A stretch of DNA of 64,000 bases from a virus: the IMG/VR virus record IMGVR_UViG_3300035698_010479, positions 124,001 to 188,000 of that record, one strand, 5' to 3'. Numbering within the stretch: position 1 is the first letter of the stretch; every line of letters starts with the position of its first letter. Shown piece after piece: positions 5,101 to 40,506 of this stretch. The position numbers were made by a program, and so were the translations under genes. The notes below the pieces were generated by a model, which was given only the letters and a program-made list of their open reading frames with translations, was not told the DNA's origin and did no database searches.

Positions 5101-6198
5101 CTAAACAGTGGCTTCTTTGGCTTTATCGTATTCTGCTTGAGCTGTGTAATAAACATCTAAACCAAGTAGTTTTGTTATCTCTTCTTTTATTAACAAAAAT
5201 ATATCTGGGTTATCATCAAAAAATTTTCTTACGCCATTATCGCCCTGGCCAATATTTTCGTCGCAATATTTATACCAACTACCAGATTTTGATAATATAC
5301 CTAAGTCCGTGGAAATTTTTATAACCTCACCAACCATGTCGTAGCCTATACCATAAATAAGATCTGTTTCGGCTTTTACGAAAGGACATGCCAGTTTATT
5401 TTTAATAGTTTCAAACTCTGTCTTATGTCCTATAACCTTACCCTTTTCATCTATAATACGGTTAGCTTTTGCACCCACACCAGAAACCCTTATTCTTCCA
5501 GTGCAATAGAAAGGTAAAGCATCTCCTCCCGTAGTTGTTTCAGGGTTACCATATCCGCCGATCTTATTTCGTGTTTGGTTTATAAATATAACACAAGTAT
5601 TGGTCTCGGCAGCTATAGGTACAAATCTAAGTGTAGTCTTACTCATTAATCTAGCCAATAGTGCAATAGTATTATCTTCTAATTCATTATCAGCAGCGAC
5701 CTTGGGTATTAGAGATGTTACAGAGTCTATAACTAATAGGTCTACATTACCAGTTTTCATGAGCAATTCAGCAACAGCTAGATTATCTTCTCCTGTATAC
5801 ATCTCCACTACGTGTAATTTCTCAGTATCCACCCCCATACTACTGAATAATCTAGGATCTGCACTATGTTCGGCATCCACGAATACACAATTCATGTTTC
5901 TACGTTGTGCCTCAGCAATTACGGACATGGCCAAAGTAGTTTTACCTGCGCTAGGTGGTCCGTATATTTCATAAAGTCTACCTTTAGCTACGCCTCCCCT
6001 GTCTAGTGCAGCATCTAGCCCTATACTCCTTGTAGAAATAGTATTTATTATTAGGGGCTTGTCACACATATACTGTAATACATTTGGATGTTTTTTATTA
6101 ATCGCTTTAACTGCTATATCAAAAGATGATAATTTGCCTGCATTGTTACCAAAAGCTGTAACATCTAGTGATCCGTCTTTAGTTTTTTTATTCGCCAT
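5101..6198 (-). CDS. recA: RecA recombinase (bacterial type)
   Basis: A 365-residue RecA that forms filaments on single-stranded DNA and drives ATP-dependent strand exchange. Visible signatures: STRSIGLDAALDRGGVAKGR (55-74), Walker A GPPSAGKTT (80-88), FVDAEHSADP with the catalytic Glu E110, Walker B LLVIDSVTSL, the strand-end Gln in FINQTRNKIG and the L2-like GGYGNPETTTGGDALPFY region. The C-terminal domain is present (GQGDNGVRKFF, then the helix LLIKEEITKLLG), but the long acidic tail of bacterial RecA is missing. The N-terminus is a little longer than usual. It resembles cellular RecA more than T4 UvsX. It overlaps the upstream gene by 11 bases and lies 2 bases from the nuclease gene. Confidence 0.96.
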   Translation of the reverse strand: MANKKTKDGSLDVTAFGNNAGKLSSFDIAVKAINKKHPNVLQYMCDKPLIINTISTRSIGLDAALDRGGVAKGRLYEIYGPPSAGKTTLAMSVIAEAQRRNMNCVFVDAEHSADPRLFSSMGVDTEKLHVVEMYTGEDNLAVAELLMKTGNVDLLVIDSVTSLIPKVAADNELEDNTIALLARLMSKTTLRFVPIAAETNTCVIFINQTRNKIGGYGNPETTTGGDALPFYCTGRIRVSGVGAKANRIIDEKGKVIGHKTEFETIKNKLACPFVKAETDLIYGIGYDMVGEVIKISTDLGILSKSGSWYKYCDENIGQGDNGVRKFFDDNPDIFLLIKEEITKLLGLDVYYTAQAEYDKAKEATV

Positions 6199-6763
6199 GT
6201 ACTCTCCTTAAATTATCAAAATTAAATCCTGTATACTCATCTGTTCGTAACTCGTCTGCGTCTACCATCTTACTTATCTTATACTCATTAAGCATTTCAA
6301 CATTATTATTTAATATGTTTATAACCTTATCGGTCAACCACTTACATTTATCACTACCAAAAATCCAGGTACCTATAGGTAATGTTAAATTAAGTTCACT
6401 CTCATAAACAAACAAAGCATTAATGATGTTAGCACAATCTTGTAATCCATCTTCAAAAGTACATTGTAACTCTTCCTGCCTATTTGATATAAATCTAGAA
6501 AATAATGCGCTGTCTTTCTGCCTGTTGGATACCAAGGAACATACATCATTATGATAATATTCCATAAGAGTATAAAATAAATTTATCAGATCGTCAAGTT
6601 TTTTTATCTGCCTAGGTTGATTTTTATTAGCTACCTTATACCCTAGAGATTTTAGTAAAGCTACACAAGCCAGTTCCACTTCCTTCTCATAGACATTATC
6701 TTTAAAAAAACTAGGTGTCTCTAATTGCTTAATTTTAGTAACTAAAACCTCTAAAGTAGTCAT
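6188..6763 (-). CDS. Hypothetical helical protein between clamp and RecA
   Basis: A 191-residue, mostly helical soluble protein that I do not recognise. It contains an internal KKLDDLINLFYTLMEYYHND segment and a C-terminal FGSDKCKWLTDKVINILNN helix. Three cysteines are scattered, there is no nucleotide-binding motif and no membrane segment. Its ATG shares one base with the sliding-clamp stop (TAATG), so it is almost certainly translated by coupling to the clamp, and its end overlaps recA by 11 bases. The strict operon position suggests a replication or recombination accessory role. That is inference from context only. Confidence 0.75.
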   Translation of the reverse strand: MTTLEVLVTKIKQLETPSFFKDNVYEKEVELACVALLKSLGYKVANKNQPRQIKKLDDLINLFYTLMEYYHNDVCSLVSNRQKDSALFSRFISNRQEELQCTFEDGLQDCANIINALFVYESELNLTLPIGTWIFGSDKCKWLTDKVINILNNNVEMLNEYKISKMVDADELRTDEYTGFNFDNLRRVHGE

Positions 6764-7896
6764 TAGTGACGTCTTATAGGTGTAATTAATGCTTTTTGGT
6801 TACTAAATTGCGCGGAATCGAATATAACAGCACTTGTGTCATCCGAAAATTGCATTATAATCAAATCATCCATTATTGCAGTTAATGTTTGCAATAAATA
6901 AGTACCGTTTAAATCCACGATAAAACTGCCTTCAAATTTAATATCCTCTCCATACTCAGCATCAGCGAAGTCATTCTTTAATGACAATTTATTATTATCT
7001 AAGATTATAGTGAGCCTACTATGATCTTCCTGGTCTAAGGATGGTAATACGGGTGCCAAGCTGCTTAATAGTATATTTTTATTTAAAGTTATTGTATGTG
7101 TAAAATTATCAAAAGCTTTTAAATAATTAGGGTACTCTTCGCCAAGAATAAGCTGGCCATGTAGAGTGGTATTACCAAAATTAGCTTTAATTTTTCCACT
7201 ATCAATACAAAAATATACTACACTATCTGTATCTAGTATACGTTTTAAAGCAGTGACGAAAGCAAAAGTAACTATGTAGCTACCAGTAAGAAGCTTGCTT
7301 GTATTGGGTGTTTTGTATTCAGATAATTTTTGGGCGTCTGTGCCAGCAAAATAAATGAATTCTTTATCAAAATTTATGTTAATGCCTTGTAGGAAACCAC
7401 GTATAGATGATGGGTTTACGGCATACATTATTTTAGATAATGCCAGACGTAATGTAGCTGCATTTATTTCAAATAAACTTTGGTTAAACGGTGTTGGTAT
7501 TGCTATTTTTTGTGGTGGATAAAGCCTTAGTTTAAGTTTGTGGACGGTTTTTTTGTTATTAACAGCCATACTATCAATAGTTATAGATAAATCATTTTTT
7601 AATGCTTTAAATTTTACATTTTTAGCTCCAACTCCATCAGATAAGTAAGGAAATGCAAACAAGAAAGCACTTAATTTACCATAAAGAATAGCTACAGTAC
7701 CTGTAACTTTAACATCACACTTATTTACTATATGAGTTAACGATGTTAGCTTGTTACTACAAAGTATAACTAATTCACCAGTATCCCTTATGTCTATGAA
7801 TAGTTGCCCATCAGCCTCTTCGGAAGTTGGTTTAGCTACAGCACCAAATAACTTCATAGCTTTCTGAAGAGCTAATAAATCTACAGTAAATTCCAT
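6763..7896 (-). CDS. dnaN: DNA polymerase sliding clamp (beta subunit, DnaN)
   Basis: A 377-residue protein with the length and three-domain layout of bacterial DNA polymerase III beta, the ring that tethers polymerase to DNA. Diagnostic stretches are LQGININFDKEFIYFAGTDA then QKLSEY (second domain, equivalent to the VATDGHRLA region), LGEEYPNYLKAF (YPDY region) and the C-terminal ALITPIRRH, equivalent to the MPMRL end. Identity to host clamps looks low, so it is probably a diverged phage clamp. It is the first gene after the consensus promoter at 7940-7968, with AAAGGAGT (7901-7908) four bases before the ATG. A bacterial-type clamp implies a polymerase with a clamp-binding motif elsewhere in the genome or use of the host enzyme. 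Confidence 0.93.
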   Translation of the reverse strand: MEFTVDLLALQKAMKLFGAVAKPTSEEADGQLFIDIRDTGELVILCSNKLTSLTHIVNKCDVKVTGTVAILYGKLSAFLFAFPYLSDGVGAKNVKFKALKNDLSITIDSMAVNNKKTVHKLKLRLYPPQKIAIPTPFNQSLFEINAATLRLALSKIMYAVNPSSIRGFLQGININFDKEFIYFAGTDAQKLSEYKTPNTSKLLTGSYIVTFAFVTALKRILDTDSVVYFCIDSGKIKANFGNTTLHGQLILGEEYPNYLKAFDNFTHTITLNKNILLSSLAPVLPSLDQEDHSRLTIILDNNKLSLKNDFADAEYGEDIKFEGSFIVDLNGTYLLQTLTAIMDDLIIMQFSDDTSAVIFDSAQFSNQKALITPIRRH

Positions 7897-7968: not shown

Positions 7969-10728
7969 CTATAAAATTAACTGTGGAGTAATATTACTTA
8001 GGATGTAGTTGTTATGATAAACATCTCCTTCACCTACTATAAAATAACTTGGTCTAAACGGTACCTCTAAGTAGTAGAAACCTAGTTCATTTGTAACGGT
8101 TGCCCCTAGTAAATCACCATTGGTTTGATCATATACTAAAATTAATGTACTTATCGCCTTGTTATATATAGTAGTATAGCCTCTTAAGAAGTAATTACTG
8201 AAGTCTATTAGGTTATCAGTTAAGCTAGCATTCATAAATTGAATAGTGTCTTCGGATACTTGCTTAGAAAAGAAAAAAATCTCAGATATTTTACCAATAA
8301 AACCTTGTTCTGGATCACCAAGTACTATAGGTAGTGTATTAACATTTACACCAGTAGAATTTCTATACAATATGTCTCGCTCAGAATTACCCAACAACGT
8401 GTTTAAGTCAGAAAATTCACTAGTTATACCAAACGTGTACGATGACCAATTACTAGACAAGGTGTATTCCCTTAAATCTAAACTATTAGAAAGCCCGTTA
8501 TGCCTATAATCCAGTGCTAATACATTATGTGCTTTTGACATTCGTCTGAAAAAGCAATTATTATACTTTACTACAAAGTTTGAAATATACACATAAGTTA
8601 AACCTGGTGTTTGTTTAAGACTATCAATCTCTATGCGTACATCTTGAAAACTTGTCATATTAAGTGTAGCAGCATTTACCCATACAGAATTATAAAGATA
8701 AGATATCTGCATGATAGTACCAGTTACCTTAACCTTTATACTTCCTGTAAAAAAATCAACTACCCCAGCAGTTAAACTCTTACCCCATAGTGCAGTATAG
8801 GTGCCACTGGTACATTGTTGCCAATACATACTGGTCAAATTATTAGAACGTAGAATACTATATAAATAATCCCTAGAGTTATCATCAAAAATAAATCTAA
8901 CAGCTATTCGCCAAAAATCACTTAGAGTACCCCCTGTTATATTAAAATCAAAAGAAAATTCAAATTCTTGGCCCAAGTAATAAGTTGTTCTAAGTCTAGA
9001 ATCACTAGCATCGGAAAATTTTAGTTTATCACCGTCCAAAAAAGCACCGCCTACAGGCATATACCAAAGATAACTATCGGGTAAACTACCAATAAGCCCA
9101 GAAAAAGTATCACTAAAACTATCCCTAGTTATTAAAGGTGTTTCTTGATGGTATAAAGTAGTAGTAGTTTCAGAATACAAACCTTTAGTCATAAATATAT
9201 TACCTGATGTTATTGTACCAAATAGTAATACCTGTGCTGTGTTAGTATAATCGTATCTGAAAGAATTACCTAGGTCAGCATAGCTAGTTAAACTGTTAAA
9301 TTTTATAGCATAACTACCTATATTATCTGAAGTAATAGATACATCACTTAAAAAACCAACTGGTGAATTTATATCCGCAGAGTTTACATAACCGAATGAA
9401 GGGTTAAAATGATGTACTGAGCTAAAAGAGCCTTTCCAAACATATTGTGATGGGGTACTAGGGGAGTCCAAAAATACTGAATCTACGCGTAACATATGAT
9501 CTTTGCTGTTCAAACTCCCACAGTATATGATTGTGTTATAAACAGAATCACCTTTAAAAATACAAAAACCACGCGTAGTAGTTAAGTCGTAAAAACCCTC
9601 TAGACCAAATTCAGCGAATACCTTTACACCACTAAAATTTATACCATCTAAGGATTTGCAAACTTTTAAAGTTGTACCCATAGCTACAGTACACGAAAAC
9701 CACATATAATAAATATCTTTTTCAAGATGTACTCGATGTATATCAATAAAATTATTAATAGACCCTACGTCTTCTGCACGTAATACTAAATTTGGGGTAG
9801 TCCAAACTTTACCATCTAACGATTCACTGTAAAATACACTATGTTTGTAAGTATTAGCAGCTCCTATACCAGTGAACCACATTTTGTATAGTGACCCTTC
9901 TTTACTTACTGAAGGAGATCTTTTACCTGATGAAGTACTATAGGCACCTGAGATATCCAAACCATCACATTTAGTAAAATTGTACCATAACTTACCATCA
10001 ATTGATTCACAATAGTATAATTGATGCAAATAAGAAGAGTTTGATTGATTACCTGAATACCACATTTTAAACAAACCATCTTCGTATATTACAGTACCAC
10101 CTGACTTATATTTAGAAGTTTCTACAGGTAGTGGATCAACACATATTGTAAAGTTAGAAAAACTATATAAGTCGTAAGATTCACAATAGTAAATAACCCC
10201 GTGCCAATACCCGCCTATAGGTGTTTGTGTTACGTACCACAGCATGTATAAATCACCAAGCTTAAGCAGTGTCATCGGTACACCACCATATAAGTCATAC
10301 TGAGTGTTAGAATCACTTGGAATCAGTGGGCTTATAGATAAATCTCCGGCTTCTGAAATAAATGATAAATTGGGTGTATGTTTTATATCATAGTAAAAAT
10401 AGAATATATTTACATACTTACTAGATATTTCAACAGGTCTAAACCAAAAAACTGCTTTAGCTGTAACGTGGTCCCACATATCTAGTTCAGCAAATAGTTG
10501 TATTTCTTCACCATTTACTAGTTGAGAAAAAGCTACCTTAGTTCTATTAGCATAGCTACTGCCAGCTACTGACATATAAGTAAATATATCACATATATCT
10601 TTTTTAGAGAATCCAGATATGTCTGATATCCTAAATAAAATAGGTACTAAGTCAATACTTTCACCAACTCTATCTTTAGGTATTGAAAATTGTAATCTCT
10701 TCGACCCACTCCAGCCAACTAGACTCAT
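7969..10728 (-). CDS. Tail fibre/adhesin with DUF2341-like and glycosidase-like beta-propeller domains
   Basis: A 919-residue tail protein. Residues 1-115 resemble a DUF2341 domain (an opening W, FSIPKD, FAELDMWDHVTAKAVFWF, IFYFYYD). Residues about 130-410 form a beta propeller whose blades repeat the pattern [LK]-x-MW[YF] then [IV]-x-Y-x-[ES]-S-x-DG-x-W (for example LFKMWYSGN, YYCESIDGKLW, LYKMWFTGIG, FYSESLDGKVW, IYYMWFSC), as in GH43/GH32-like five-bladed folds. LamG-like segments follow (about 480-860), and residues about 865-919 resemble a carboxypeptidase-regulatory-like module (TLILVYDQTNGDLLGA). It probably binds or trims a host surface polysaccharide. Catalytic acids cannot be assigned by eye, so enzyme activity is uncertain. 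Its ATG overlaps the upstream stop (ATGA). Confidence 0.7.
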   Translation of the reverse strand: MSLVGWSGSKRLQFSIPKDRVGESIDLVPILFRISDISGFSKKDICDIFTYMSVAGSSYANRTKVAFSQLVNGEEIQLFAELDMWDHVTAKAVFWFRPVEISSKYVNIFYFYYDIKHTPNLSFISEAGDLSISPLIPSDSNTQYDLYGGVPMTLLKLGDLYMLWYVTQTPIGGYWHGVIYYCESYDLYSFSNFTICVDPLPVETSKYKSGGTVIYEDGLFKMWYSGNQSNSSYLHQLYYCESIDGKLWYNFTKCDGLDISGAYSTSSGKRSPSVSKEGSLYKMWFTGIGAANTYKHSVFYSESLDGKVWTTPNLVLRAEDVGSINNFIDIHRVHLEKDIYYMWFSCTVAMGTTLKVCKSLDGINFSGVKVFAEFGLEGFYDLTTTRGFCIFKGDSVYNTIIYCGSLNSKDHMLRVDSVFLDSPSTPSQYVWKGSFSSVHHFNPSFGYVNSADINSPVGFLSDVSITSDNIGSYAIKFNSLTSYADLGNSFRYDYTNTAQVLLFGTITSGNIFMTKGLYSETTTTLYHQETPLITRDSFSDTFSGLIGSLPDSYLWYMPVGGAFLDGDKLKFSDASDSRLRTTYYLGQEFEFSFDFNITGGTLSDFWRIAVRFIFDDNSRDYLYSILRSNNLTSMYWQQCTSGTYTALWGKSLTAGVVDFFTGSIKVKVTGTIMQISYLYNSVWVNAATLNMTSFQDVRIEIDSLKQTPGLTYVYISNFVVKYNNCFFRRMSKAHNVLALDYRHNGLSNSLDLREYTLSSNWSSYTFGITSEFSDLNTLLGNSERDILYRNSTGVNVNTLPIVLGDPEQGFIGKISEIFFFSKQVSEDTIQFMNASLTDNLIDFSNYFLRGYTTIYNKAISTLILVYDQTNGDLLGATVTNELGFYYLEVPFRPSYFIVGEGDVYHNNYILSNITPQLIL

Positions 10729-11113: not shown

Positions 11114-12766
11114 TTAACCAGATATAGTAGTAAAACCAAATTCATGGGTATTTAAAAAGATATCTTGCCACTGTTCTGTATTACCTGGAGTACTTTCGTA
11201 AATAAATGATAAATTTTTATAATTTATACTTGGAAGTAATCCTGATGTATTATATACACTGCCGCCACTTACTACAGTCGCAGCTAATTTAAAATTAACA
11301 TCTAGGTCTCTTTTAGCTATAACATTCGCACTAATTGCAAGTATATTAGGTATATTAAATGTAGTGGTAAAATCGTAACTATCTGAGCTACCTATTGTAG
11401 AGGAATATATATATTTATTACCAGCTTCTTCTGGTAATTGCCAAGATACAAAAAATTTTGGTGAATTAATATGGTACGGATCATTATTAGCTTCATATGC
11501 GGAATAGCCTAGGCTAATATATGCTACAGTAGTCTCTTTGTAATATATATTTATAATAGCTAATATACTATTACTTGTAGCTTGCCAATTAGGTAAGTCT
11601 ACTAATTCCTGCACTAAATTTTTAATATCTCTATAAGCTAAATTATCACCTTGTTTTAGATAAGTTTTATTAAATGTTGGTGTCCTAGAAGACAAATCAG
11701 TATAAGAAGTTACCTGTGCTGCGGGTGTGCCTGAAAGTTGCAAAAAAAGTAATTGTTCATTTGTACTTGGTTGTTCTGGTATATGTAACTGATTCAATAT
11801 TAAATAAGCACTTATTATTTTGGCATTTTTTGGGATGTTAATATTTGAAAATCTAAACCAAAAATAATTATTTTTAGTGTTAATATCCATGTACAATGCT
11901 GTATTACCTGGTACGGTAACACTAGTATTATTAAACAACCATAATACAGTAGAGGTAGTTGACCGCATGTAACTACCATCATCTAACCCATCATATTCGT
12001 AATAAATTCCACTATATGTGGTGGTATTCAATGGGTAAGTACCATTGAGTATTATTTCAGAATTAACACTTCCTGAATAAGTAGTTTCTGGTACAAATTG
12101 TTGTAAACTTCCAGTAGTAGCAACATTGAGAGTAGAAATAGTACAATTACCTAAAAAAGCATTATTTATACTACCAAGTGTATTTAATATGTATAAATCT
12201 TCAATATATAAAAAACTGCCAGGTGTTGAAGAACTATCTTTTTTACCAAATTTAATATTATTTACCGTATAAGGTGCTGTTGTAGCAGTAGATATATCAC
12301 TGATAGTAAATACACTACTATCGTCAATACGTATGAAAAAATTGCCACCAGTATTACTAAATTTAACTTTTATTTCTAAGTAACTCCATTTGTTTAATAC
12401 AAATATTTTATTAATACCGTAATTACTATATACACTACCGGAATACCAATGTAATCCAGTAGGTGTTACAACTAGTCTGCATTGTTCGATATCATCATAA
12501 CAAAATGCTACATAAAAATGATCTGGAACATCCAATATACGAACGTACGCAAAACCAATAATAAGCTCATCGTAGTAGTTATGTAAAGACTTCTGTAAGT
12601 AATCACCTGAAATATAAGATGGTATACAATTAGCAGCTAGTACATTACCACCATTTCTACCTAAATGGCCCTCTTTTATAAAAAAGCCACAATTAGCCGT
12701 ACGTTCTTCCCACTTCAACGGTAAATGTAAATAATTTTTAAAACTATCAAAAAATAAAATGCTCAT
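11114..12766 (-). CDS. Tail fibre protein with LamG-like and DNRLRE-like domains
   Basis: A 550-residue protein. The N-terminus (about 1-200) reads as a concanavalin/LamG-like jelly roll common in phage tails: FFDSFKNYLHLPLKWE, then FAYVRILDVPDHFYVAF, WSYLEIKVKFSNTGGNFFIR and a closing FLYIEDLYILNT. The centre (about 255-450) has the layout of a DNRLRE/TGF-propeptide-like module (FWFRFSNINIPKNAKIISAY, then LVQELVDLPNW, then FFVSW). The remaining 100 residues are beta-rich and unassigned. Carbohydrate or receptor binding is the usual role. It lies 3 bases after the DLxAxI repeat protein and 2 bases before the next gene, so all are co-transcribed. Confidence 0.65.
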   Translation of the reverse strand: MSILFFDSFKNYLHLPLKWEERTANCGFFIKEGHLGRNGGNVLAANCIPSYISGDYLQKSLHNYYDELIIGFAYVRILDVPDHFYVAFCYDDIEQCRLVVTPTGLHWYSGSVYSNYGINKIFVLNKWSYLEIKVKFSNTGGNFFIRIDDSSVFTISDISTATTAPYTVNNIKFGKKDSSSTPGSFLYIEDLYILNTLGSINNAFLGNCTISTLNVATTGSLQQFVPETTYSGSVNSEIILNGTYPLNTTTYSGIYYEYDGLDDGSYMRSTTSTVLWLFNNTSVTVPGNTALYMDINTKNNYFWFRFSNINIPKNAKIISAYLILNQLHIPEQPSTNEQLLFLQLSGTPAAQVTSYTDLSSRTPTFNKTYLKQGDNLAYRDIKNLVQELVDLPNWQATSNSILAIINIYYKETTVAYISLGYSAYEANNDPYHINSPKFFVSWQLPEEAGNKYIYSSTIGSSDSYDFTTTFNIPNILAISANVIAKRDLDVNFKLAATVVSGGSVYNTSGLLPSINYKNLSFIYESTPGNTEQWQDIFLNTHEFGFTTISG

Positions 12767-12769
12767 AGA

Positions 12770-14938
12770 TTATTCCTTCCAAAAATCTTCTGCTTGAATA
12801 TGTGACCAATTCATATTATTATATGAACCTGGCGGCACATAAGTAAGGTGCTTAAACTTAAGATGTACATCTGTAGGTAATGGTGGTTCATAAGCTTTTC
12901 CTACTATTATGGTAGTTAGATTATTGCTACTATTAATCCTTTTAGGCGTAATAGATGCTGATAAACTCTTAAAATTATTAAGTACACCTGTTATAGTGGC
13001 TTTACATGATATGGACCAGTGCTTAACTTTATGAACAGTTATATAGGCATTCAAATCATTTGATGGATATGTAGTAGCTGATATATACGCCTCTAGGTTG
13101 GTATGCCTGCTGACGGATACTCTATCAATTAAATCATTGAGTGCTTGGTCAAATGTATCATAGTTTTTTATGTTGAAAATAAATAGCTTTTTGACTTTTA
13201 TCCTTGAATATAGTTTATTAGGATCGTTTGAAAAACCAGATACCTGCACTTTCCAAGTTCTTTTTCTATCAACCTTATAGACTTTATTTTCTTGTGGCAC
13301 AAAGAAAAAATGATAGTCTTCTTCGGAATTTGTAAAAAACATCATCTCAACGAATCGTCTCCAGTATTCTTCAAATCTATCTAAATTTACTACAACCTCT
13401 AAAGTTTTAGGATTGACCCAAGTAGGTACAGTAGTAAAGTTAGCTAACGGTTTTGCAATTATTGATGCACTTAAGTCTTTAGAATATAAAATACCAGTAA
13501 TAGTTGCTTTTAAAATATTAGTTGCCTTAGACCCTAATAACATAAACGTGTCAAATACTTTATGAGTGTTTGGTTTAAGGTTACTAGTAATATTTAAGGT
13601 AACATATGGTTGTGTTGCTTCATAAATATTTCCCACACAACTTATATAGTTAGTTTGTACATGGTTTACTACGTTTATATACGCGGATAAATCTAACACA
13701 TTATCAGCCCCGCCTGCGTACCAGCCTATAATAAAGGCCCCCAGGTCTAATCTTTTAATTGTATATAGATGGGCAGCTAAATTCACATAACTTGATTGAA
13801 GACAGTTGTAATTAATTACTGCTCTCAAATCCTTATGTTCTAAAAGTGATATAGATATGATTCTCTTTATATTAATAGTTTTTGGTACTATTTCAGCTTT
13901 TAGATCTAGATATTTACCGGTGGCATTTATATAAGCAAGAAAAAAAGACGACCCTATAGCATTTATATAGGCATTTAAATCTTGTGTATCAAGACCTATT
14001 ATACTAGCATATAAATCATATGACATATTTTGCGCCTGCATACCGTAAATATAAGCAGGCATATCTTTAGGTTTTACAGCGTTAATATTGGCTGGTAGGT
14101 CGTAAGGCTGATAACCAACTATTGTTATAGCACTTAAGTTAGCTGCAGCGTAGCCATGTAAATGGGCACTTAAATCTACAGGAGTAACACATTTAAGGTA
14201 TGCATTTAAATTTTTATATATTTTAAACGCTCCAGCGAATATAGTGGCTTTCAAATCATATACTGAAAAGGAGTGAATAAAAGCAGCTAAATCACTTATT
14301 TGCCATCCAATAATAGTAGACTTGATATCTGACTTGCTCTTAAATGTAATTTTACCAAAATTTACAGCTAAGTCTGAAGATCCTTTAAATAATACGCCAG
14401 AAATAAATGAGCTTAAATCCCTCAACTCAATGATATTTAGTAGTGCCTGTAGGTTCACCGCTGGAATGGTCTGTAATAAAGAAGATATATCATTATAATT
14501 ACTATATAAAACTTTAATTGCTGCTGGCAAATCATAAAATAAATCGGTTTCACCAAAAATGTCTGCGTGTAAATCAATAAAACCAGAAAGATTAAACCTA
14601 CCACAAGTTATAAAAGAACCTAAATCTCGTATGCCTCCAAAAACGCATGGCAGTTCCAGCACTTGTATACCATTATTACTATAACCTACAACCACTTTTT
14701 TACATGTTTTTACGTAGGTGTATGTTGAATCCTGAAATAAAGGCCATACCTCTACGGATGCTTCCAGATCCTGAGTACCATGATAGTAGAATTTAAGTAC
14801 AGATATAGCGGCTTGTAAATCACTAGTACTAAGTGCATTAGCTAAAAAATCAATATTAACAAAATCCGGGGAAGTGTAGCCTTCATCTGTAAAATTAAAT
14901 AATACACTACTACCTTTAGGTGGGCGATAACTAGACAT
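12770..14938 (-). CDS. DLxAxI repeat protein of the tail (unrecognised family)
   Basis: A 722-residue protein built largely from degenerate repeats of about 15-35 residues with the core [DN]-L-x-A-x-[ILV]-x-[GA], for example ISDLAAFIHSF, VYDLKATIFAG, YKNLNAYLKC, PVDLSAHLHGY, PYDLPANINAV, PKDMPAYIYGM, TQDLNAYINAIG. The main block covers about residues 100-500, and a second block follows from about 610 (TNLEAYISA, NDLNAYITV, KSLSASITP). Between them, about residues 505-605, is a non-repeat domain (RFEEYWRRFVEMMFFTN, DYHFFFVPQENKVYKVDRKR). Alternating L and I at fixed spacing suggests a beta-solenoid stalk. It is not a family I can name. Context in the fibre block makes it a tail or baseplate structural protein. 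Confidence 0.75.
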   Translation of the reverse strand: MSSYRPPKGSSVLFNFTDEGYTSPDFVNIDFLANALSTSDLQAAISVLKFYYHGTQDLEASVEVWPLFQDSTYTYVKTCKKVVVGYSNNGIQVLELPCVFGGIRDLGSFITCGRFNLSGFIDLHADIFGETDLFYDLPAAIKVLYSNYNDISSLLQTIPAVNLQALLNIIELRDLSSFISGVLFKGSSDLAVNFGKITFKSKSDIKSTIIGWQISDLAAFIHSFSVYDLKATIFAGAFKIYKNLNAYLKCVTPVDLSAHLHGYAAANLSAITIVGYQPYDLPANINAVKPKDMPAYIYGMQAQNMSYDLYASIIGLDTQDLNAYINAIGSSFFLAYINATGKYLDLKAEIVPKTINIKRIISISLLEHKDLRAVINYNCLQSSYVNLAAHLYTIKRLDLGAFIIGWYAGGADNVLDLSAYINVVNHVQTNYISCVGNIYEATQPYVTLNITSNLKPNTHKVFDTFMLLGSKATNILKATITGILYSKDLSASIIAKPLANFTTVPTWVNPKTLEVVVNLDRFEEYWRRFVEMMFFTNSEEDYHFFFVPQENKVYKVDRKRTWKVQVSGFSNDPNKLYSRIKVKKLFIFNIKNYDTFDQALNDLIDRVSVSRHTNLEAYISATTYPSNDLNAYITVHKVKHWSISCKATITGVLNNFKSLSASITPKRINSSNNLTTIIVGKAYEPPLPTDVHLKFKHLTYVPPGSYNNMNWSHIQAEDFWKE
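13450..14610 (-). repeat. Degenerate DLxAxI protein repeats (more than 15 copies)
   Basis: This is the main repeat block of the 722-residue tail protein. Copies are visible at protein level as [DN]L-x-[AS]-x-[ILV]. Spacing is commonly 14-17 residues, with some doubled intervals. The DNA repeats have diverged: they show on the + strand as recurring gcatttaaatc / gcacttaaatc type words rather than exact copies. Boundaries are approximate. Confidence 0.65.
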
Positions 14939-15046: not shown

Positions 15047-18000
15047 TTATTGCTCATCCCACCAAACTTTAATTCGTGTATCTAATTGCGTAAAACCTGC
15101 TCCGGTAGGAATGTTAGACCGGATAAAAAATGGTTTACTTTGTTGTGGATGTATATCAGGTATCTCAATAGCTGGGGCCATTATTATCCTAGTAACAGTT
15201 GGTGTAGAAATACCATCAAAATTCCATAATGTAAGTTTTACTTGGTGATATTTATTTTTAGTTAAAAAATAACCATCCTTATCTACCTCTTTCCAAGGTA
15301 AAGACAGCTGCCCACTGCCCCATAAACTCTCGTAACTCTGAGGTATTAATTTAGGCCCTTGTAGATCAAGTTGTTGATTTTCCAACGTATATGAAAATAG
15401 ATTTGGGGGAAAACAATCTGTATAACTAGATAATCCAAAGTAATCAGTATAAAACTTAGTCCAACTAACAGCACCACTTTTTAAAGGTATATATTTAACC
15501 CTTTTTAATGTGGATGAATATACAAGTACACCAAGCTCTGCACCGCTTAAGTAATCGTTATTACTTAAACCAGTAACAGTCATAGTTAGACTCCCTTCTT
15601 TGTCGTAATGGCAAACCCTTTGATTGTTAGCTGTATCTAAAGTGTAAAAGCCCCCCATTAAATCAGGTGATATAATTGTAAATGAATAACTAACTGGGAC
15701 TGTAATAAGTAGTTCGCCTGAGGAGCTATATTTTTTTATGGTTTTTTTATACACTAAATCCAGATGGTCTATAACCCAACAACTATTTTCATTCGATATA
15801 GCTATCTCGAATGGAGCTGCTATGGCAACTGTTGATACAACCTCCCCAGCTGCGTTTAAATGTACTAAAGATTTAGCTATATTATTAGTATACCAAACAC
15901 CATCTGAAATAAAATCCACGGCTAGGCCACACAAACCGGCAAGAGAAACTTCCACTATCAAATTAAATGTGCTATCAAAATGTCTTATATAGTTTAGTGT
16001 GTTGTCGTATGACCAAAAGCCTCCTGAAAAGTCAAAACCACAGTATTTAGTATTACCAAAATATGATGTTATATTTAAATTTTTAGCTGTATAAACTATG
16101 CTATTATAATCATAAATCAGCGCATATGAACCGACTGTAGAAGTATAGTATGTCATTATATAAAGTTGTTTTCCATTACGTTTATTAACTGATGAAGCAT
16201 GTAAACTTATAGAAGATGCAAAACTTACTGTTGTTTGGGTAGTAGTACTAGTTGAACTAGTGCAATCAAAATTAGTCATAGCATAGTAAGTATGAGTTGT
16301 GGCGCGCATAAGCCAAGACATCATAACTACCGGTACTGGACTAATATCACTGCTTCTAACCTCTATAACACCGTCTTGCAGGTCCTTATACTTACTAACA
16401 TTTGTTTTTCCTATTGTAGATATTGTGTCAACTTTAAAATAACTAGCTTTATTAGAATAAGGTAATGATAAAATTGGTGTGATGTAATTACCACTTATAT
16501 GAAGTAAATTAGGTATGTTATTGTTTAAAACTTGTGGTAAGTTATAACCGAAGAACGCATATTCATTAGTAAAACCACTAAGTACAATCAGAGATACATC
16601 TGCTTCCAGGCTTAAAGGAGCAAACGCATGGATCTTGTTTACTACGCCCGTTTTTGTTAAAATATTTACAGGTAGTGTTGCGACTATATCTGTATTTAGA
16701 TTGTAACTATATATTTTCCCATTATATTCAGCTGCCTGAAAATATAATTTTTCATTGAAACAACTTATATGTATATCTGAGTAAGTAAGTGATATACGAG
16801 CGCCATAATTAAAATATTGATTTGTCCATGTATTTGTGGCTATATCATACATTTCTAAGTAATAATTGTTAGCTGCACTTAAGGTCCAGCAACTATGACT
16901 AAGTACATATATACGATTACGTATGTCATCATGAACAAGTGTATTCAAGTTTTGGCTTGTCTGTACCTGAAAAAAAGCATTATCCATTACAGTTAATACG
17001 CCTGTAGTAGTATTTATTTTTGCGAATTGTCTGGCACTATCATTTTGGTATATACCATGATTTTTCAACCATATATTACCATTAAAATCAGCAACCATAA
17101 AATAATCATAGATACTTAAGTACAAGGCCACGAATGTAGTAAATGTGGTTAGATTAGCTAAAGCACCTGTAGTAGAATGCCTTAGTATAGTACGAGTTGT
17201 ATCACTACCTGGAATAAGTGCCATAAAATATACATAAGCATTATCACAACACATACTAAAAGTTGTTACATCCCAAAGAGTACTTACAAGATCTCCCCTA
17301 AAAGCCCAAACATTAGTTTGTACGTTATAGCACCATAATTTAACAACGGAACTTTGCGCTACGGTACCTTCCCAAAAAGCTACATAAAGTTTATTATTAA
17401 CTTTATCATAGGCGGTAGATTTTTTAAGACCGAAAGGTTTACTTGGGTATGTACAAGAAACATTTGGTAGCACACCAATATAATCTGGTTCTAAATTCTC
17501 ATAAGGAGTTGTTTTAGATATAACTAACGAGGCTCCATCTGATGTGCCAATGACCTTCGTATTATTATGTGTACCCCTAGACCACATAGTTTTTATAATA
17601 TCACCATCCATAATATTATAAAATGGACCTGTTTGATTTGCTGAAATATCTATATAAGCATCCCCTGGTTGCCCAGTATAATCCACACATACATAAGCAT
17701 TTGCTGGTTTATCATTAGAACTATTATTGTATATATCTAATGCTTGTAGTTCACCATAAGAACCTTCAGGTGTGTCGTTTATAAATGCGTCTGTAACACT
17801 ACCATCCTGGCCAAAAGCTATTATATTATCATTATTGAGTACCTGTAGCTCATGTAATAATATGTCTGTACCACTAACTACACATCGTACATATCTTGGT
17901 GCACTTGGGTTAGGTACTGTACCAATATAAGATGTTGCGGATACACTTTCGGTGCAAATTGTAAATTCTTCTTCGTATATATTTTTGTAAAAAAAAGAAA

Positions 18001-18235
18001 TATTTGATAACTTTGTTAAATCATCTGCGTAGAGAAGTATACTGTCAATTTTTAATCTATACCCCAAATCAATATCTAAACATATAGTGTTCAGGTTTGT
18101 AACCTGAACGCCCCCAGTGTATAAATTGTTGTCTATTAAAGAGTTTAATTCCTCTATAGTTAGTACACGATTACCAATACCACTAGTAGTATTAGAAATA
18201 AATGAACTATTTCTTATCATATTATATTTTGACAT
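15047..18235 (-). CDS. Tail fibre with discoidin-like and kelch/NHL-type propeller domains
   Basis: A protein of about 1,062 residues. I place the start at the ATG at 18233-18235 (MSKYNMIRNSS), because AGGGG (18241-18245) lies 5 bases ahead. A longer frame from a TTG at 18262 has no such support. Domains by eye: a discoidin/F5-8C-like N-terminus (about 35-145: LRIDSILLYADDLTK-type strands, then PRYVRCVVSG and LHELQVLNND). A kelch-like propeller follows (about 265-530: KLYVAFWEG, LWCYNVQTNVWAF, LEMYDIATNTWTN), then an NHL/YVTN-like propeller (about 690-900: GGFWSYDNTLNYIRHFDSTF, GVWYTNNIAKSLVHLNAAGE, GGFYTLDTANNQRVCHYDKE). A beta-rich tail closes it. These folds usually bind host glycans or proteins. 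Confidence 0.7.
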   Translation of the reverse strand: MSKYNMIRNSSFISNTTSGIGNRVLTIEELNSLIDNNLYTGGVQVTNLNTICLDIDLGYRLKIDSILLYADDLTKLSNISFFYKNIYEEEFTICTESVSATSYIGTVPNPSAPRYVRCVVSGTDILLHELQVLNNDNIIAFGQDGSVTDAFINDTPEGSYGELQALDIYNNSSNDKPANAYVCVDYTGQPGDAYIDISANQTGPFYNIMDGDIIKTMWSRGTHNNTKVIGTSDGASLVISKTTPYENLEPDYIGVLPNVSCTYPSKPFGLKKSTAYDKVNNKLYVAFWEGTVAQSSVVKLWCYNVQTNVWAFRGDLVSTLWDVTTFSMCCDNAYVYFMALIPGSDTTRTILRHSTTGALANLTTFTTFVALYLSIYDYFMVADFNGNIWLKNHGIYQNDSARQFAKINTTTGVLTVMDNAFFQVQTSQNLNTLVHDDIRNRIYVLSHSCWTLSAANNYYLEMYDIATNTWTNQYFNYGARISLTYSDIHISCFNEKLYFQAAEYNGKIYSYNLNTDIVATLPVNILTKTGVVNKIHAFAPLSLEADVSLIVLSGFTNEYAFFGYNLPQVLNNNIPNLLHISGNYITPILSLPYSNKASYFKVDTISTIGKTNVSKYKDLQDGVIEVRSSDISPVPVVMMSWLMRATTHTYYAMTNFDCTSSTSTTTQTTVSFASSISLHASSVNKRNGKQLYIMTYYTSTVGSYALIYDYNSIVYTAKNLNITSYFGNTKYCGFDFSGGFWSYDNTLNYIRHFDSTFNLIVEVSLAGLCGLAVDFISDGVWYTNNIAKSLVHLNAAGEVVSTVAIAAPFEIAISNENSCWVIDHLDLVYKKTIKKYSSSGELLITVPVSYSFTIISPDLMGGFYTLDTANNQRVCHYDKEGSLTMTVTGLSNNDYLSGAELGVLVYSSTLKRVKYIPLKSGAVSWTKFYTDYFGLSSYTDCFPPNLFSYTLENQQLDLQGPKLIPQSYESLWGSGQLSLPWKEVDKDGYFLTKNKYHQVKLTLWNFDGISTPTVTRIIMAPAIEIPDIHPQQSKPFFIRSNIPTGAGFTQLDTRIKVWWDEQ

Positions 18236-18240
18236 ATATT

Positions 18241-18245
18241 CCCCT
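18241..18245 (-). promoter_or_regulatory. Ribosome binding site deciding the start at 18235
   Basis: AGGGG on the minus strand stands 5 bases before the ATG at 18233-18235 and overlaps the stop codon (TAG, 18246-18244) of the 2,268-residue gene. It favours this ATG over the in-frame TTG at 18262 and implies termination-reinitiation coupling. Confidence 0.7.
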
Positions 18246-21200
18246 AAATAGTTGTTAACCAATCTACTATTATTTGTGCATTACTACCCATAGATCGACG
18301 ATTACTGCCCTTAACTGTCCTAACATATACAATCTCGAAAGACCCGCTTGGGACTTGCTCAAATACTATAGGCAAATTTTCAGAGCCTGGTCCGTAAAAG
18401 GCTATATTATCTTTTGATAGTTCTATAAAATTCTCAGGTGTATATAAAAATTCGCCTTCTATGTTTTGAGTATTTACTAAAAAATCCTCCTTACAATAGT
18501 TGTATACTTTTATATTCTCATAAACAAAGGCACTATGGTCATTGTAAACCTGGGCTGTTTGTGTAATACCACCACCAAGCTTAAAGAAGGCTAATTTAGT
18601 GTCAGATACTTCCCAAGTTGACAAACTATTTAAGGTTAATATACCGTTTATAAATAGTTTAATAGTATAACCACCGGTTATGTCTGATCCATCATTACTC
18701 CAGACAAGTCCAATATGTGCTATTTTATTTCTACCTATAAAAGTATGTGCAGGTAACTCAGTAGTACTAAATAAACTTTGTTTTCTTATATTACCAGCGA
18801 ATACCTCAAACCAGTTTCCAGGTTTTATTCTGAGAGATATTATATCATTAGTATTACTACTTAGCGTGAATAATGTCGCAGCATGAATCTCCCCAAAAGC
18901 ATCTCTCCCTAGAGAGTCAACACCCATCTTTACCCAAAACTCAATTGAACCTCTATCTAAGTTAATGTTAGATAAAGGCATCATTAAATAATCATTATAT
19001 GTTAAACATACGCCGTTTGAGTATTTAACTGGTGTGTCAAAATAATTTCTAACGATAGAAAAATTATCAAATAATAATATTAAAGGATTACCAAGGCCTC
19101 TAAATTGTACATAAAGTGTAGTAAGATTTCTTTCATTACTTTGTAGACTTAATATAGTTTCTAAAAATTCAGTAGACCCGCTAGTTCTGGTTGGATGTAC
19201 ACTAGAGTAATCATAAAAATTCAGATGTACATCATTCCAACCAGTAGTAAGAGGTATATCAGCTATGTTCCATACATAATAAAAATCTTTCGTATCACTT
19301 CCTATAACTCCTAAAACAACCTTACCAAAAGATGTATCAAGATTTTCTATATTATCTATATATAAGAAGAAATGAAAGGCATCAGATATTGACCATAATA
19401 AGTCTTGGCCAAAATGATCTGCCTCTGATAGAGTAAGAGTTTCTATAAGACTGGAAGCTGGATAAGCTACTTTTAATGAACGTTTACCTACTTTAGTATT
19501 TGTACTATCATTAGATAATATAGATATATTTGATAGCCACCACCACCAATAAGCCGTTGGTATATATTTGTCACCACCATACACTTCAATTTTGTCTAAG
19601 TAATCCTTGCTAGACATATCGTCTAGAAATGTATAGGAGTAATTAGTGGCAGTGTCTCTTACAATAGCTACCCATTTTGTTAAATCATATAGTCTATATA
19701 TTTTTAAATTTCTTAGTCCCCAAGAATTTTCAATGTCTATATGTTGTCTTGCATATATATTAAAATAACCATCGTACTCTACGAAAAATTCATGTTTCTG
19801 TTTCTGCCATCCGCTACCATATACATTAGCATAAATAACGATAGTACTATTCCCTTCAAAATCAACACTAATTTCGTCCACATTTTGTGGGTAGTATGCA
19901 TCCCAATCTATATAGTGATGTCCTTGTGCTAAAAATAAAGAGGTCACTAATAAATACTCCATTGAGTACTTAAGATCATCTGTACTAAAATCACTATTAT
20001 ATTCTATAGTGTAGTCCTGTCCTTTGATAAAGGATGCTTTATTAGGGTCAGATGTTAAACTATCGGAGTAACTTATAAACTCACTAGAGTTGTCCCATTT
20101 CGTGTTACTGACCTGTGTAAGTAAAGGAGATCCTTGTCTAAAAGAATTATAAAGTTTCACATCAACAACATTAAACTTGTCTCGTAAATCTAAACATACT
20201 ATCGGAAAATCCTCACTATTTATATAAGGAACGTTTGTCTTTGCAAATATTTCTATTTCTCTTAAAAAACCTAAACTAGCATTCAAATGTGTGGAATTAA
20301 AAGCATCTGTAGGTACGTCTATAGTTTCAAAAGAGGTTATTTCAAATTTGGCTCTTCTAGCATATATAAAATCAAACTCATGTGTTTGAGTTACTGAGTT
20401 TTTTATATTAGCGGCTGTGTACACTAGTACCCAAGTTCTATTAGACCCATCCACTGTATTATCAATATACAACTTATAGGCCTTGTTATAACCTAGTGCC
20501 ACATTTGGTGAATAACCGTTATGTACACTAAATGATCCTACAAAATATTCTGAGTCAAACTCTATATACAGGATAGGATTGGTACCCTTCTCATACGCCC
20601 AGCAATATTCTGTACCATATTTTGAAGATGTACCATCAACAGCTTTGCTTGGTAAATTATCACCATAAAAAGTTGTACCCGATACAGTAGTATCTAAAGC
20701 TATGTTTTTTAATGGCGTATACTGTGTTAGAGAAGCATCTAAAGGTAGCCAAGAATTATTTAAGCCACCATCCTTACAAAAAACATTGGTTATATCCGTA
20801 TAAATTCCTAATTTTTCTATTGATTTTATTAAATTATCTGAACAATCCATCTGAATACCTAACCATCTGCAATCCGAAAATGAAGAATTAAAAATAGCAT
20901 CATCTATATTACCATAACTATTAGAGTACTGTGTTTTCAATTGTAGTGACACATCAAACAAATTACCTATACCGTAATGGCGTACTATTGATAAACTATG
21001 TCTTTTTTCAAGATCAAGAACAAAAGCTATAAACAGATCTTGTCTTTGAAGTGTACTTATAGAGTTTAAAGAGTAGTTATTGTTATTTACACCAGATAGT
21101 ATATTTATAGTTAATTCGTTACCTGTCGCTATTATGTTTAAACTGTCAATAGGTGTCAACTCTGCCAGTTCTATACCTAACCAAGTTCCTGAGGTAATCA

Positions 21201-24200
21201 TTGGTCTATAATTAAAACTTACATTATATATATCGACCTCAAGTAGTACTTTAGAGGCTCTAAAATAAAAAGATGATATTTTACCAGAAAAACTTAAAAT
21301 AAATGTAGCTATATGTATATGCTTTCCTAGGTATAATGAAATAGTTCTACCAGCTTTTCTTATACAGATATTATTAATCTGCAACATATTAAAATAACAT
21401 CCTAAGCTACTGCTGGAAAATAGTATATTGTCCCCTTCAAATATTTTTATAAAATGACCGGAAACGCAACTTGTTAAATAGGCACCAACTGGTACGGACC
21501 AATTTAACCAGAATATTTTTTCAGCGCCGCTATAGAACTCAAAATTACATTCAGCTCCAGAAAATATGTAAGAGGGATGTGTAGTGCTGAAATAGTAGTC
21601 AAAAATAAATTCAAAGTTATCTGAATTATTAAACCTATAAGTACTTAGATTAATAGTACCAGATTTACCACGTATATGTAAATATTTATTATCCACAACA
21701 ATAGCTTCTGGTGATTTTGTACCGAAAATTGAAAATTCATCAAAAGTACCTTCAGAAAATGAGTCTTTAAAAGTATAATAATTTTGAATATTAACACCAT
21801 CAGATACGATATAATCAGACGATGTATTTGGTATAATATCAGGTAATAGCACTTTACGTATTTTTGTACGTTTACCTTCGAAAGAAACTATTATATCATT
21901 CACTACACTAACTCTATCAGAGTTAATAACTTGAAACCTCCAATATTTGCTTGATACAGGGTTTATATAACCGCTGAACTTGTACATATGCATGAAGCGT
22001 TCATTAGAAAAATTAATAGCCACACCAGAACTTACTGTTCCAAACTTAAACCAGTCAAAGGTATTATAAGAGTAATATGCCTCTTTATTATCCGCCAGGT
22101 TAGCTAGGCCATAACTAAAGCAGTTTGTAGCACACTGTCCCCTGCTATATTTTATTGGAAAATCATCGCTTTTATATAAAAAGCACGTAGGGCCTAATTC
22201 TGAATCCTTAATAGACTCCATGGAGTTTAATTTATTCCACATTATAATATTCTTACTACTAATTAAATCTCTTGGTATATCTACAGTAAGGTCAAAAGCT
22301 TTATTATAAATATTAGTTATGGTTATCTCTTTACTATCGTTAATTATACCATTTTTAGCCTCACTTAATAATACCAATGAATCTTCTGTGTAAGCTTGTT
22401 CTGTAGTGGTTATCGAAATTTCTCGCATATTAAACGCAGTTTGTGATTCAAAAGATACCCTAAAGTATCTCGGTGTACTTCCTACAAAAGCAGATGTTGT
22501 AGTTTCGTCTAATGTTTTAAAACCTGTTGTGCGCCACTTATCTTTATAATCAGAAAAATGAAGGATAGTATTATCTACCATAGATACATCATTTGGTATT
22601 CTGGAATATACTTCCATCTCGGTAACCTTTGTGCTATTATGCTTATCACAAAAAATTCTAAACCCTTTACATGATATAGGTTCAAATTCATGTCCTAAAA
22701 TACTCCAATCTACAAAATATGTAGATATATGATCTGAACATGTTTCCGGGTTATCATAATCAGCGCTGTACAAATTCGTTGTGGCTGGATTCTTAAATAA
22801 ATATCTATCTATGTTATCATTATCACCTAAATTATATCTAACACCGTTTAGATATAAATGTTTATACTCTGGCACTAAGTCATATTCAACAGCATCGGCA
22901 TTACCTGAGTAGTGGTATGAACCACCATATGTAGATAAGGCTATGTTTCTAAAATTATTCTCTTCTTTAAAATAAATTACACTTTTATGTACATCAAATT
23001 TATGCTCTGCAGGGAAAAGGAGCGTAAATGCTATGGGATCAGTAGTATAATTAATTGAACCGCTTGTTGGCTTCTTTGCTCCACAGTACTCCGTTAAACC
23101 ATTACATACTGTTGCGTAGGGCCATTCAAAGTCACCATTTACATAAAAATAAGCATGATCTCCAAAAGTAGCTATTCCGTTATCTTGGGTGTATATATCA
23201 CCCTCTTTACCATTGTCAGCTGTTATTACCAAGTCATCGAGACAATCTTTACCATAGTATATATTATTATGTGTATCATACCATAGACCGCCATAAACTG
23301 TTAAGTATACTCCAGCATGATTGTGTGTTTCATTAAATAAGTTAACATTCCAGGTTACATCCAAGCAAGAAGCTAGATTAAATTCATAAAAACCTTCAAG
23401 TTCTTCACCGGATACTATGAAGTCAGATACGTTTAACCTAAAACCTATGTCAATATCTAGAATTGTATTATTTTGTTTTAGGTCCCCTCTAGCGTATATA
23501 GCAAAACCGCCTACACCATACGAATATGAAGTGCTATCTAAAACACTATGTTCTATATCACCATTTACTTGTATAAAAGTAGCGTCGGGTAAACCTGTAG
23601 ATGTCTTTCCAACGTATAAATTAGCATTATAGATACCTAGTACATCACCTTTATTGACCAGAACATCATAATCTACTCTAGAAACTATAGGATTGGCAGT
23701 ATATAATGTATTTGCCTTGTCCATCGGTAAGGGTATTGAGTGTACAAGAGAAAAGCTGCCGTCATTATGTGGTCTTAATATTTTTAAAGCAGCTCCACTA
23801 TAAAGAACGCCGTAGACCCAGAAATGTTTTAATTTACCATTATTATCAATTCGTTTAGAAAGATCAATAATTGTCTTACCTGTGTTATCAAAAGAAGCAT
23901 AACCTGTTACATCTTCCAACTCTGAAATAAGCTTTGATGTACCAATTTCATTAAAGTCTCTTCTACCGCCTTCAACAGAATATTGAGATGGGTTATGTAC
24001 ATAAGCTATGTCACCGTCCCCATCAACAAGTGCATTTATTTCAAATGTTTGTAGAAGCCTAGTACTGGCGTAGTCAAACCCAGTAGCTGGATCGGAACCA
24101 GTAACGCTCTCGTATGTAGGTTCCATGTCCGAATTAAAGAAGCCTAATTCTTCCGCAGCTTTTGAATATTTTATTACAACACTACTAGTGTTTCTATTAG

Positions 24201-25050: not shown

Positions 25051-25438
25051 GTTTTTTAACAAAGGGACATACAGCTATTATATCTTTATAACAGTTACCT
25101 TTGTTATCAACACCATCGCATATATTACAATAAACTAAACCATTGTCAGGATTTATACTGCCAGGATTTACTATATGTTTAAAAACATGTATCTTTCTAA
25201 ATCTTTTTACATCTGCCCTAACACTTTCTTGTCGTTTAAGTTCATATTCTTTAAATGTATATTTAAATATACTCATACAGTTAATACATTTGTATATTAG
25301 CGGAGTTTTTAAAGCGATTTCCTCTATAACATGAACTTCATCATTTATATAATCTACCTTAGATATATACTCAGCTATAGAAGAGTCATAGTCAAACTCT
25401 AATGTATGTTTGCAGTTATCACATTGTATGTTAAACAT
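25040..25438 (-). CDS. Small zinc-ribbon-like protein in the tail operon
   Basis: A 132-residue protein with three cysteine pairs: FNIQCDNCKHTL (C6, C9), YKCINCMSIFKY and VYCNICDGVDNKGNC, plus a final VCPFV. Two CxxC pairs separated by about 43 residues look like a zinc ribbon at the N-terminus. The rest is charged and helical (ELKRQESVRADVKRFRKIHV). Cys pairs appear again near the N-terminus of the next protein in transcription, the 2,268-residue adhesin, so it may assist its folding or assembly. It lies 11 bases after the 1,844-residue protein. I cannot name the family. Confidence 0.65.
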   Translation of the reverse strand: MFNIQCDNCKHTLEFDYDSSIAEYISKVDYINDEVHVIEEIALKTPLIYKCINCMSIFKYTFKEYELKRQESVRADVKRFRKIHVFKHIVNPGSINPDNGLVYCNICDGVDNKGNCYKDIIAVCPFVKKHEA

Positions 25439-32803: not shown

Positions 32804-33418
32804 TCACTGTGGTTTACTCCCTAAAGAAAATTCAAAAGTTTTAACTGGTAAAATATTACCAGAAAAGTCTTTTACCCCAGAAATTGTAATACTATAAGAT
32901 TTACCATACATAAAATACTTACTTTGTGGTTTAACAGCTGCTGATATATTATACTGGCCTGATCCCTCTACAGATACATAAGCTCCAAGGTCGTACTCTT
33001 TATAAGTAGAAGTCTTAAAAAAAGTAGAAAAATAAGTAGTATTAGGATTAAACACATTATTAACTGCCGAAACTGAAACAGGTATTTCACTGTTAACAGG
33101 CCACCTAATCACTTTCTCCCACAGTACTTCATAACCATACTGTAATAAATATGTCCTACTAGTATTATCATCATTACTATTACTACCAAAAACCTCTAAA
33201 ACCATTGTACCACTTGGGACTGTAGAATATGATAATGTATAACCATTAACTAATGGTGTTGTTGTGCAATTTACAGTATACCCATTATTAACCATGAATG
33301 TACCGGATAGAGTAACACTATGTTCATCATCCAGTACGTCAACACGGAAATCTACTAAAGATGTACAATATACTGTAGAATCTTTAGGTATAGAAAAATT
33401 TGTTATGTATAGTGCCAT
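32804..33418 (-). CDS. Ig-like tail protein (204 residues)
   Basis: A beta-sandwich protein with two apparent Ig-like repeats. The first has the opening strand STVYCTSLVDFRVDVLDDE and ends in a GSN turn. The second ends KYFMYGKSYSITISGVKDFS then GNILPVKTFEFSLG, the usual closing strands (Y-x-[IVL]-x-[IV]-x-G-[VI]-x-D-x-x-GN) of bacterial Ig-like domains (Big_5/SbsA type). Such domains decorate phage tails and bind weakly to cell surface sugars. It lies 35 bases after the 869-residue fibre gene and ends with TGA, 71 bases before the 517-residue gene. Only a weak AGG Shine-Dalgarno precedes its start. Confidence 0.6.
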   Translation of the reverse strand: MALYITNFSIPKDSTVYCTSLVDFRVDVLDDEHSVTLSGTFMVNNGYTVNCTTTPLVNGYTLSYSTVPSGTMVLEVFGSNSNDDNTSRTYLLQYGYEVLWEKVIRWPVNSEIPVSVSAVNNVFNPNTTYFSTFFKTSTYKEYDLGAYVSVEGSGQYNISAAVKPQSKYFMYGKSYSITISGVKDFSGNILPVKTFEFSLGSKPQ

Positions 33419-40501: not shown

Positions 40502-40506
40502 ATATA

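Follow-up and report, generated by a model that had tools for sequence, protein, structure and literature searches.

Layout of the locus

The window analyzed here is the whole stretch of 64,000 nucleotides at positions 124001-188000 of the 228,458-bp virus record IMGVR_UViG_3300035698_010479. On its minus strand, an open reading frame (ORF) at 12770-14938, located in the tail module, encodes a 722-aa protein with DLxAxI repeats, for which 48 distinct relatives were collected. An N-terminal tag delimited from the alignments (residues 1-37, YRPPKGSSVLFNFTDEGYTSPDFVNIDF; 14828-14938), whose pattern YxPP..FxF..GYxxPD is kept in many relatives, is followed by a first repeat block of about 20 units (residues ~40-423; 13670-14821). 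This block is broken at residues 74-106 (14621-14719) by a conserved insert (YVKTCKKVVVGYSNNGIQVLELPCVFGGIRDL), which was recognized from the alignment and the AlphaFold model and is the sole part near pLDDT 70 in the full-length model. Two units starting at residues 475 and 488 (residues 475-495; 13454-13516) stand just ahead of a central non-repeat domain of ~115 aa (residues 500-616, RRFVEMMFF..FFFVPQENKVYKVDRKRTWKV..DQALNDLIDRV; 13091-13441), and a second repeat block (residues 614-680; 12899-13099) and a C-terminal tail delimited from the alignment (residues 684-722; 12773-12889) complete the protein, all on the minus strand. The tail has the pattern PP..LKF...Y.PP and, as judged by eye, resembles the N-terminal tag. 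The initial annotation had described two repeat blocks around a distinct central domain, and this was the arrangement found, with units at residues ~40-425 plus 475-495 and then at ~614-680, and ~115 aa of non-repeat sequence between them.

All the neighbors described below are likewise encoded on the minus strand. Immediately upstream lies the gene for a 1071-aa tail-module protein (15047-18262), which several relatives likewise have close to the repeat gene and which gave sub-threshold Kelch matches only. It is preceded by the gene for a 2272-aa tail-module protein (18244-25062) with a discoidin-like (F5_F8_type_C_2) galactose-binding domain (E = 8e-6, just below the curated cut-off). Other tail proteins of the neighborhood carry a LamG domain (36066-38636, E = 1.6e-11) and a bacterial Ig-like Big_1 domain (38645-40534, E = 6e-9). 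A contractile sheath (PF04984) was not found in the 228-kb record.

Downstream, the start codon of a gene for a 550-aa protein (11114-12766), assigned to phrog_2448 (function unknown, E = 9e-22), lies a few bases past the stop of the repeat gene. The last tail-module gene here encodes a 919-aa protein (7969-10728), and is followed by the genes for the beta clamp (6763-7896), a small protein of ~190 aa lacking a Pfam match (6188-6763), and RecA (5101-6198). Pfam confirmed RecA and the beta clamp, as well as a DnaB-type helicase, a primase-like Toprim protein and DnaJ. Among relatives with enough flanking sequence, the repeat gene comes after large tail proteins and stands mostly directly ahead of the beta clamp, ~190-aa gene and RecA cassette, the order of which is conserved in the lineage; in the window, three more tail genes separate the repeat gene from this cassette.

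At this boundary of the tail module, a perfect sigma-70 consensus promoter (TTGACA-17-TATAAT, 7968-7940, minus strand) was observed between the last tail gene, which ends at 7969, and the beta clamp gene, which starts at 7896. It was the only 12/12 match among the matches listed for 17.9 kb.

The repeat unit and its family

The six-residue core [DN][LM]xAx[ILV] occurs 21 times in the 722-aa protein, whereas 2000 shuffled versions of its sequence contain 0.2 copies on average and never more than 3. With an 8-position unit profile built from the relatives, leaving out the window protein and its closest homologue, 25 units scored above the cut-off of 5 bits (shuffles: mean 0.3, maximum 3). The repeat is therefore confirmed as real. 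The initial count of more than 20 copies of [DN]L-x-A-x-[ILV]-x-[GA] applies to the core, but not to the whole 8-mer, since with [GA] at the last place there are about a dozen copies (12 even when A, S or T is allowed at the fourth place). From 561 units of 23 proteins, the unit consensus was [D/N]-L-[G/P/S]-A-[S/Y/T]-[I/L/V]-x-[G/A/P], with a variable stretch after it. Throughout these 23 members L, A and I are kept and the loop positions vary freely, and the three residues alternate with presumably exposed positions in a manner resembling a beta-strand.

Units in the window protein are spaced by 12, 14-18 and 25 residues, without a single fixed period. Across the 23 members the intervals were 12 (150 cases), 13 (75), 14 (39), 16 (30) and 15 (17), or were doubled to near 25, spacings of 24-28 being common. 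A Fourier test of residues 201-425 gave a peak at 13.1, which exceeds the 95% shuffle level and stays below the shuffle maximum because the spacing varies.

A whole-protein search returned one homologue, L002 (958 aa, on a 161-kb contig), with the same neighboring genes. Two DNA-pattern scans and three alignment searches with the central domain in IMG/VR brought together 48 distinct ORFs that have both the central domain and the repeats, on contigs of ~7 kb to 298 kb, part of them cut by contig ends. The search for the repeat in metagenomic phages, proposed in the initial annotation, was thus productive, and the layout of repeats, central domain and repeats is common to all the relatives. Identity among them is ~20-58% over the aligned C-terminal part. 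Judged from the alignments, the central domain is the part that unites the family; one of its columns is invariant across all 48 relatives, and charged and aromatic residues are invariant within the main branch.

The assignment to an unknown family also held, as no model of Pfam-A or NCBIfam and no PDB chain matched the window protein, no family match was common across the members of the 23-row alignment, and the central domain by itself matched neither a family nor a solved chain. A tblastn search with five whole members against 50,697 deposited phages gave no significant match, and no true member emerged when 84,980 genomes of bacteria and archaea were scanned once for the pattern. That scan did return a Treponema protein (L110), which scores 56 bits against the family profile but was rejected as an Asp-rich coincidence. 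The DLxAxI protein represents a previously undescribed family, of a known functional kind, from about 50 uncultivated, mostly large phages. Its repeat class is missing from curated domain libraries, none of which recognizes the family, and whole-protein searches of deposited phages miss it.

Members differ in the length of the array and in added domains. L002 is 55% identical to the window protein in shared columns and 236 aa longer, with an extra stretch of units of ~240 aa ahead of the central domain. Its DNA contains 162-nt direct repeats (54 aa, four units) that are 70-78% identical, so the array grows through the tandem duplication of blocks. Among the members counted as complete, 14-49 units precede the central domain, which is always kept. 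In L114 (6809-10516), the first ~800 aa consist of repeated domains of ~130 aa with long Ser/Glu-rich linkers between them; a shortened array with 15 DLxAxI units comes next, and then the central domain. In L084, L144, L146, L147 and L158 the protein runs on into two C-terminal stretches of Laminin_G_3, a ConA-like lectin domain (E = 3e-26 to 7e-33). The window protein itself has no recognized binding domain. Free variation in the length of a defined repeat offers a simple handle on the evolution of fiber reach.

Ser/Gly-type repeats in SP-15 and other phages

A generic consensus query, modeled on a Paenibacillus repeat, matched gp64 of Bacillus phage SP-15 (AMM44863.1, 4401 aa, annotated "pectate lyase"), proteins of Brevibacillus phages Jenst and SecTim467, and a protein of a Paenibacillus plasmid; a query with the SecTim467 repeat added Listeria phage LIS04. 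The same generic query also matched Aeromonas phage AVP3, which was rejected, its tail protein carrying a different repeat (APYGLQPGVIADLT). Klebsiella/Raoultella plasmid matches to a DLPASI-like consensus (H26-H39) were likewise discarded, as the matching frame opposes the annotated gene and lies beside a RepB gene; they are probably origin repeats.

SP-15 gp64 and SecTim467 gp52 belong to phrog_11333 (function unknown). The window protein gave no direct match to the phrog_11333 profile, and one of the 23 family members matched it (5e-6). The statement in the initial annotation that no named phage family with this signature is known has to be qualified, as a Ser/Gly version of the unit fills long arrays in phrog_11333 and in related proteins. 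These arrays, in SP-15 gp64 and in gp52 of Jenst and SecTim467, follow [D/N/S][L/I]x[S/G/A]x[I/L]x[V/I] with a spacing of mainly 12 and 14, so that, as in the window protein, tandem units of 12 or 14 residues have a small residue flanked by large hydrophobic ones; their genes, too, are located where the tail module ends or close to it. The SP-15 gene closes the tail region and directly follows a gene for an RCC1 beta-propeller, and the order of RCC1 and then repeat gene is also found in SecTim467 and LIS04. In contrast to the DLxAxI family, the small position has Ser or Gly in place of Ala, and two places after Ile there is Val in place of Gly, Ala or Pro. CBM96 (DNRLRE) domains are interspersed in the SP-15 and SecTim467 proteins, whereas none was present in the window protein or the 23 aligned members; SP-15 gp64 starts with an N-terminal pectate-lyase-like beta-helix, and the central domain of the family was not seen in the SP-15 and SecTim467 proteins. 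A search by terms did not bring up gp64 in the main text of the SP-15 genome paper (PMC5977210).

LIS04 gp86 and WP_190299717.1, a DNRLRE protein of Paenibacillus peoriae plasmid pPlas1, have a Ser-type repeat with 12/14 spacing as well. The latter shares a LamG domain with some DLxAxI relatives and differs from them in having a CBM96 domain; both come from other host groups, and the central domain was not seen in either. In SP-15 gp64, SecTim467 gp52 and the Paenibacillus plasmid protein, such units link CBM96, LamG and pectate-lyase-like modules.

With the family profile, SP-15 gp64 scored 102 bits, LIS04 gp86 100 bits, WP_190299717.1 84 bits and SecTim467 gp52 70 bits, and shuffled sequences scored below 3 bits. 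Low-complexity decoys selected by the motif reached 56 bits with the same profile; part of the score therefore comes from the motif itself, and profile scores alone are insufficient for common descent with the SP-15 repeats. Kinship is further supported by the spacing, the position of the gene and the domain partners that the two have in common. On these grounds the DLxAxI and SP-15-type repeats are treated as being of one kind, and common descent is likely. We tentatively suggest, with less than even confidence, that DLxAxI and DLxSxI units belong to one undescribed superfamily of beta-strand shafts with a fold of its own, in which 12- and 14-residue units are in register, and which serves in uncultivated large phages and in phages of Bacillota as a rigid arm of tunable length carrying carbohydrate-binding modules. 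SP-15 and the Brevibacillus phages are cultured systems in which the repeat is testable.

Possible fold and role of the array

Two AlphaFold models were made. The one of the entire protein, based on an alignment of 23 rows, had a mean pLDDT of 38, and the one of the last 253 residues, based on 48 aligned rows, reached 48. Both values are too low for a fold to be assigned, and fold searches with these low-confidence models gave no usable match. The full-length model, at its low confidence, has one strand of ~8 residues per unit and is otherwise all-beta, helices being limited to the central domain and the C-terminal end. The array had initially been read as a beta-solenoid. A short beta-strand in every unit is supported, but neither a confident solenoid nor a two-unit period was obtained. 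In the autocorrelation of unit order, the similarity of units two apart was no higher than after shuffling (lag 2, z = -3.0), so the two-unit period expected of a two-sided solenoid is absent; the signal at lag 4 (z = 6.0) was raised mainly in members with duplicated blocks. A beta-meander or a trimeric beta-spiral would fit the sequence equally well as a solenoid.

Two of these geometries deserve separate consideration, and both are rivals on geometry and not on the role as a shaft. A strict beta-solenoid, monomeric and with each coil made of two units (24-28 residues), is favored by the alternation of large and small inward residues, by the one strand per unit and by the frequent double spacings of 24-28; it is held to be doubtful, as two-unit periodicity is missing while lag 4 is raised, AlphaFold gave no confident solenoid, no solenoid repeat family in Pfam or PDB matched by sequence, and, on geometric reasoning, a 12-residue unit with a strand of 7-8 residues would be too short for one coil. 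An intertwined trimeric shaft is possible to the same limited degree. In the triple beta-spiral shafts of adenovirus fiber and reovirus sigma-1, one strand plus turn is formed per ~15 residues, and short strand-turn repeats build a long shaft of variable length. A strand plus turn every 12-16 residues with a variable turn length agrees with such a structure, and obligate trimers would be expected to give low monomer confidence; however, the unit has 12 and not 15 residues, its Asp-Leu-x-Ala signature is unlike known beta-spirals, and no such shaft in the PDB matched the DLxAxI protein by sequence. Since both AlphaFold runs were of low confidence, neither a solenoid nor a trimeric shaft is claimed here, and with them the shaft geometry and the oligomeric state stay at the level of what may be proposed.

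The protein is interpreted as a virion adhesin or fiber component, a stiff all-beta shaft of variable length from the end of the tail module of a large-phage lineage, which would hold binding modules away from the particle (probability about 0.6). Each DLxAxIxG unit would form one beta-strand of ~7-8 residues plus a turn, with L, A and I facing one side and the invariant small residue permitting tight packing; units in tandem would then give an elongated, stiff all-beta shaft, the length of which would evolve via duplication of unit blocks. Together with the short second block, the central domain of ~115 aa may serve as a terminal or assembly module. As part of the virion, the shaft would keep carbohydrate-binding or other modules off the particle for contact with, and presumably binding to, the cell surface, these modules being fused in some relatives and encoded nearby in the window. 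Modules of binding-like type are N-terminal in some proteins (Paenibacillus) and C-terminal in others. The length variation, the Ser-rich linkers and the lectin fusions fit a spacer or shaft in an adhesin. Against a fiber, none of the named homologues is annotated as one. The earlier suggestion of a rigid stalk presenting the adjacent adhesins is partly supported: the spacer role is favored, given that the unit number varies between close homologues, that L114 has Ser-rich linkers, that lectin domains are added and that discoidin-like, LamG and Ig-like proteins are neighbors, but the AlphaFold confidence is too low for the shaft geometry.

Instead of a spacer, the protein could be a tailspike with an enzymatic central domain, e.g., a depolymerase, for which the repeats would provide no more than a scaffold. 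The conservation of the central domain, with its invariant charged and aromatic residues in the main branch, and the pectate-lyase-like beta-helix at the start of SP-15 gp64 speak for this, but the domain is without a family or solved-chain match and no catalytic-looking cluster is conserved across the 48 relatives, in which a single column is invariant; we regard the tailspike as unlikely. Far less probable still, to the point of being negligible, is a low-complexity or coincidental repeat with no defined structure. The unrelated low-complexity ORFs L110, L053 and L046 match the same DNA pattern and score up to 56 bits, but the order of units and the central domain are kept in 48 relatives at ~20-58% identity, and L, A and I persist while the loop positions vary freely.

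Units and other repeats were also observed elsewhere in the window. A 204-aa tail-module protein (32804-33418, minus strand) has one DLxAxV unit (DLGAYVSVEGSGQYNISAAVKP), and roughly five units are present in its 684-aa relatives in L038 and L039; the repeat is thus not confined to the main family. A 5376-aa ORF (47769-63899, minus strand), which probably encodes the tape measure protein, has a tandem array of some ten "I[ED]GLxxLxDIKI" units close to the C-terminal end.
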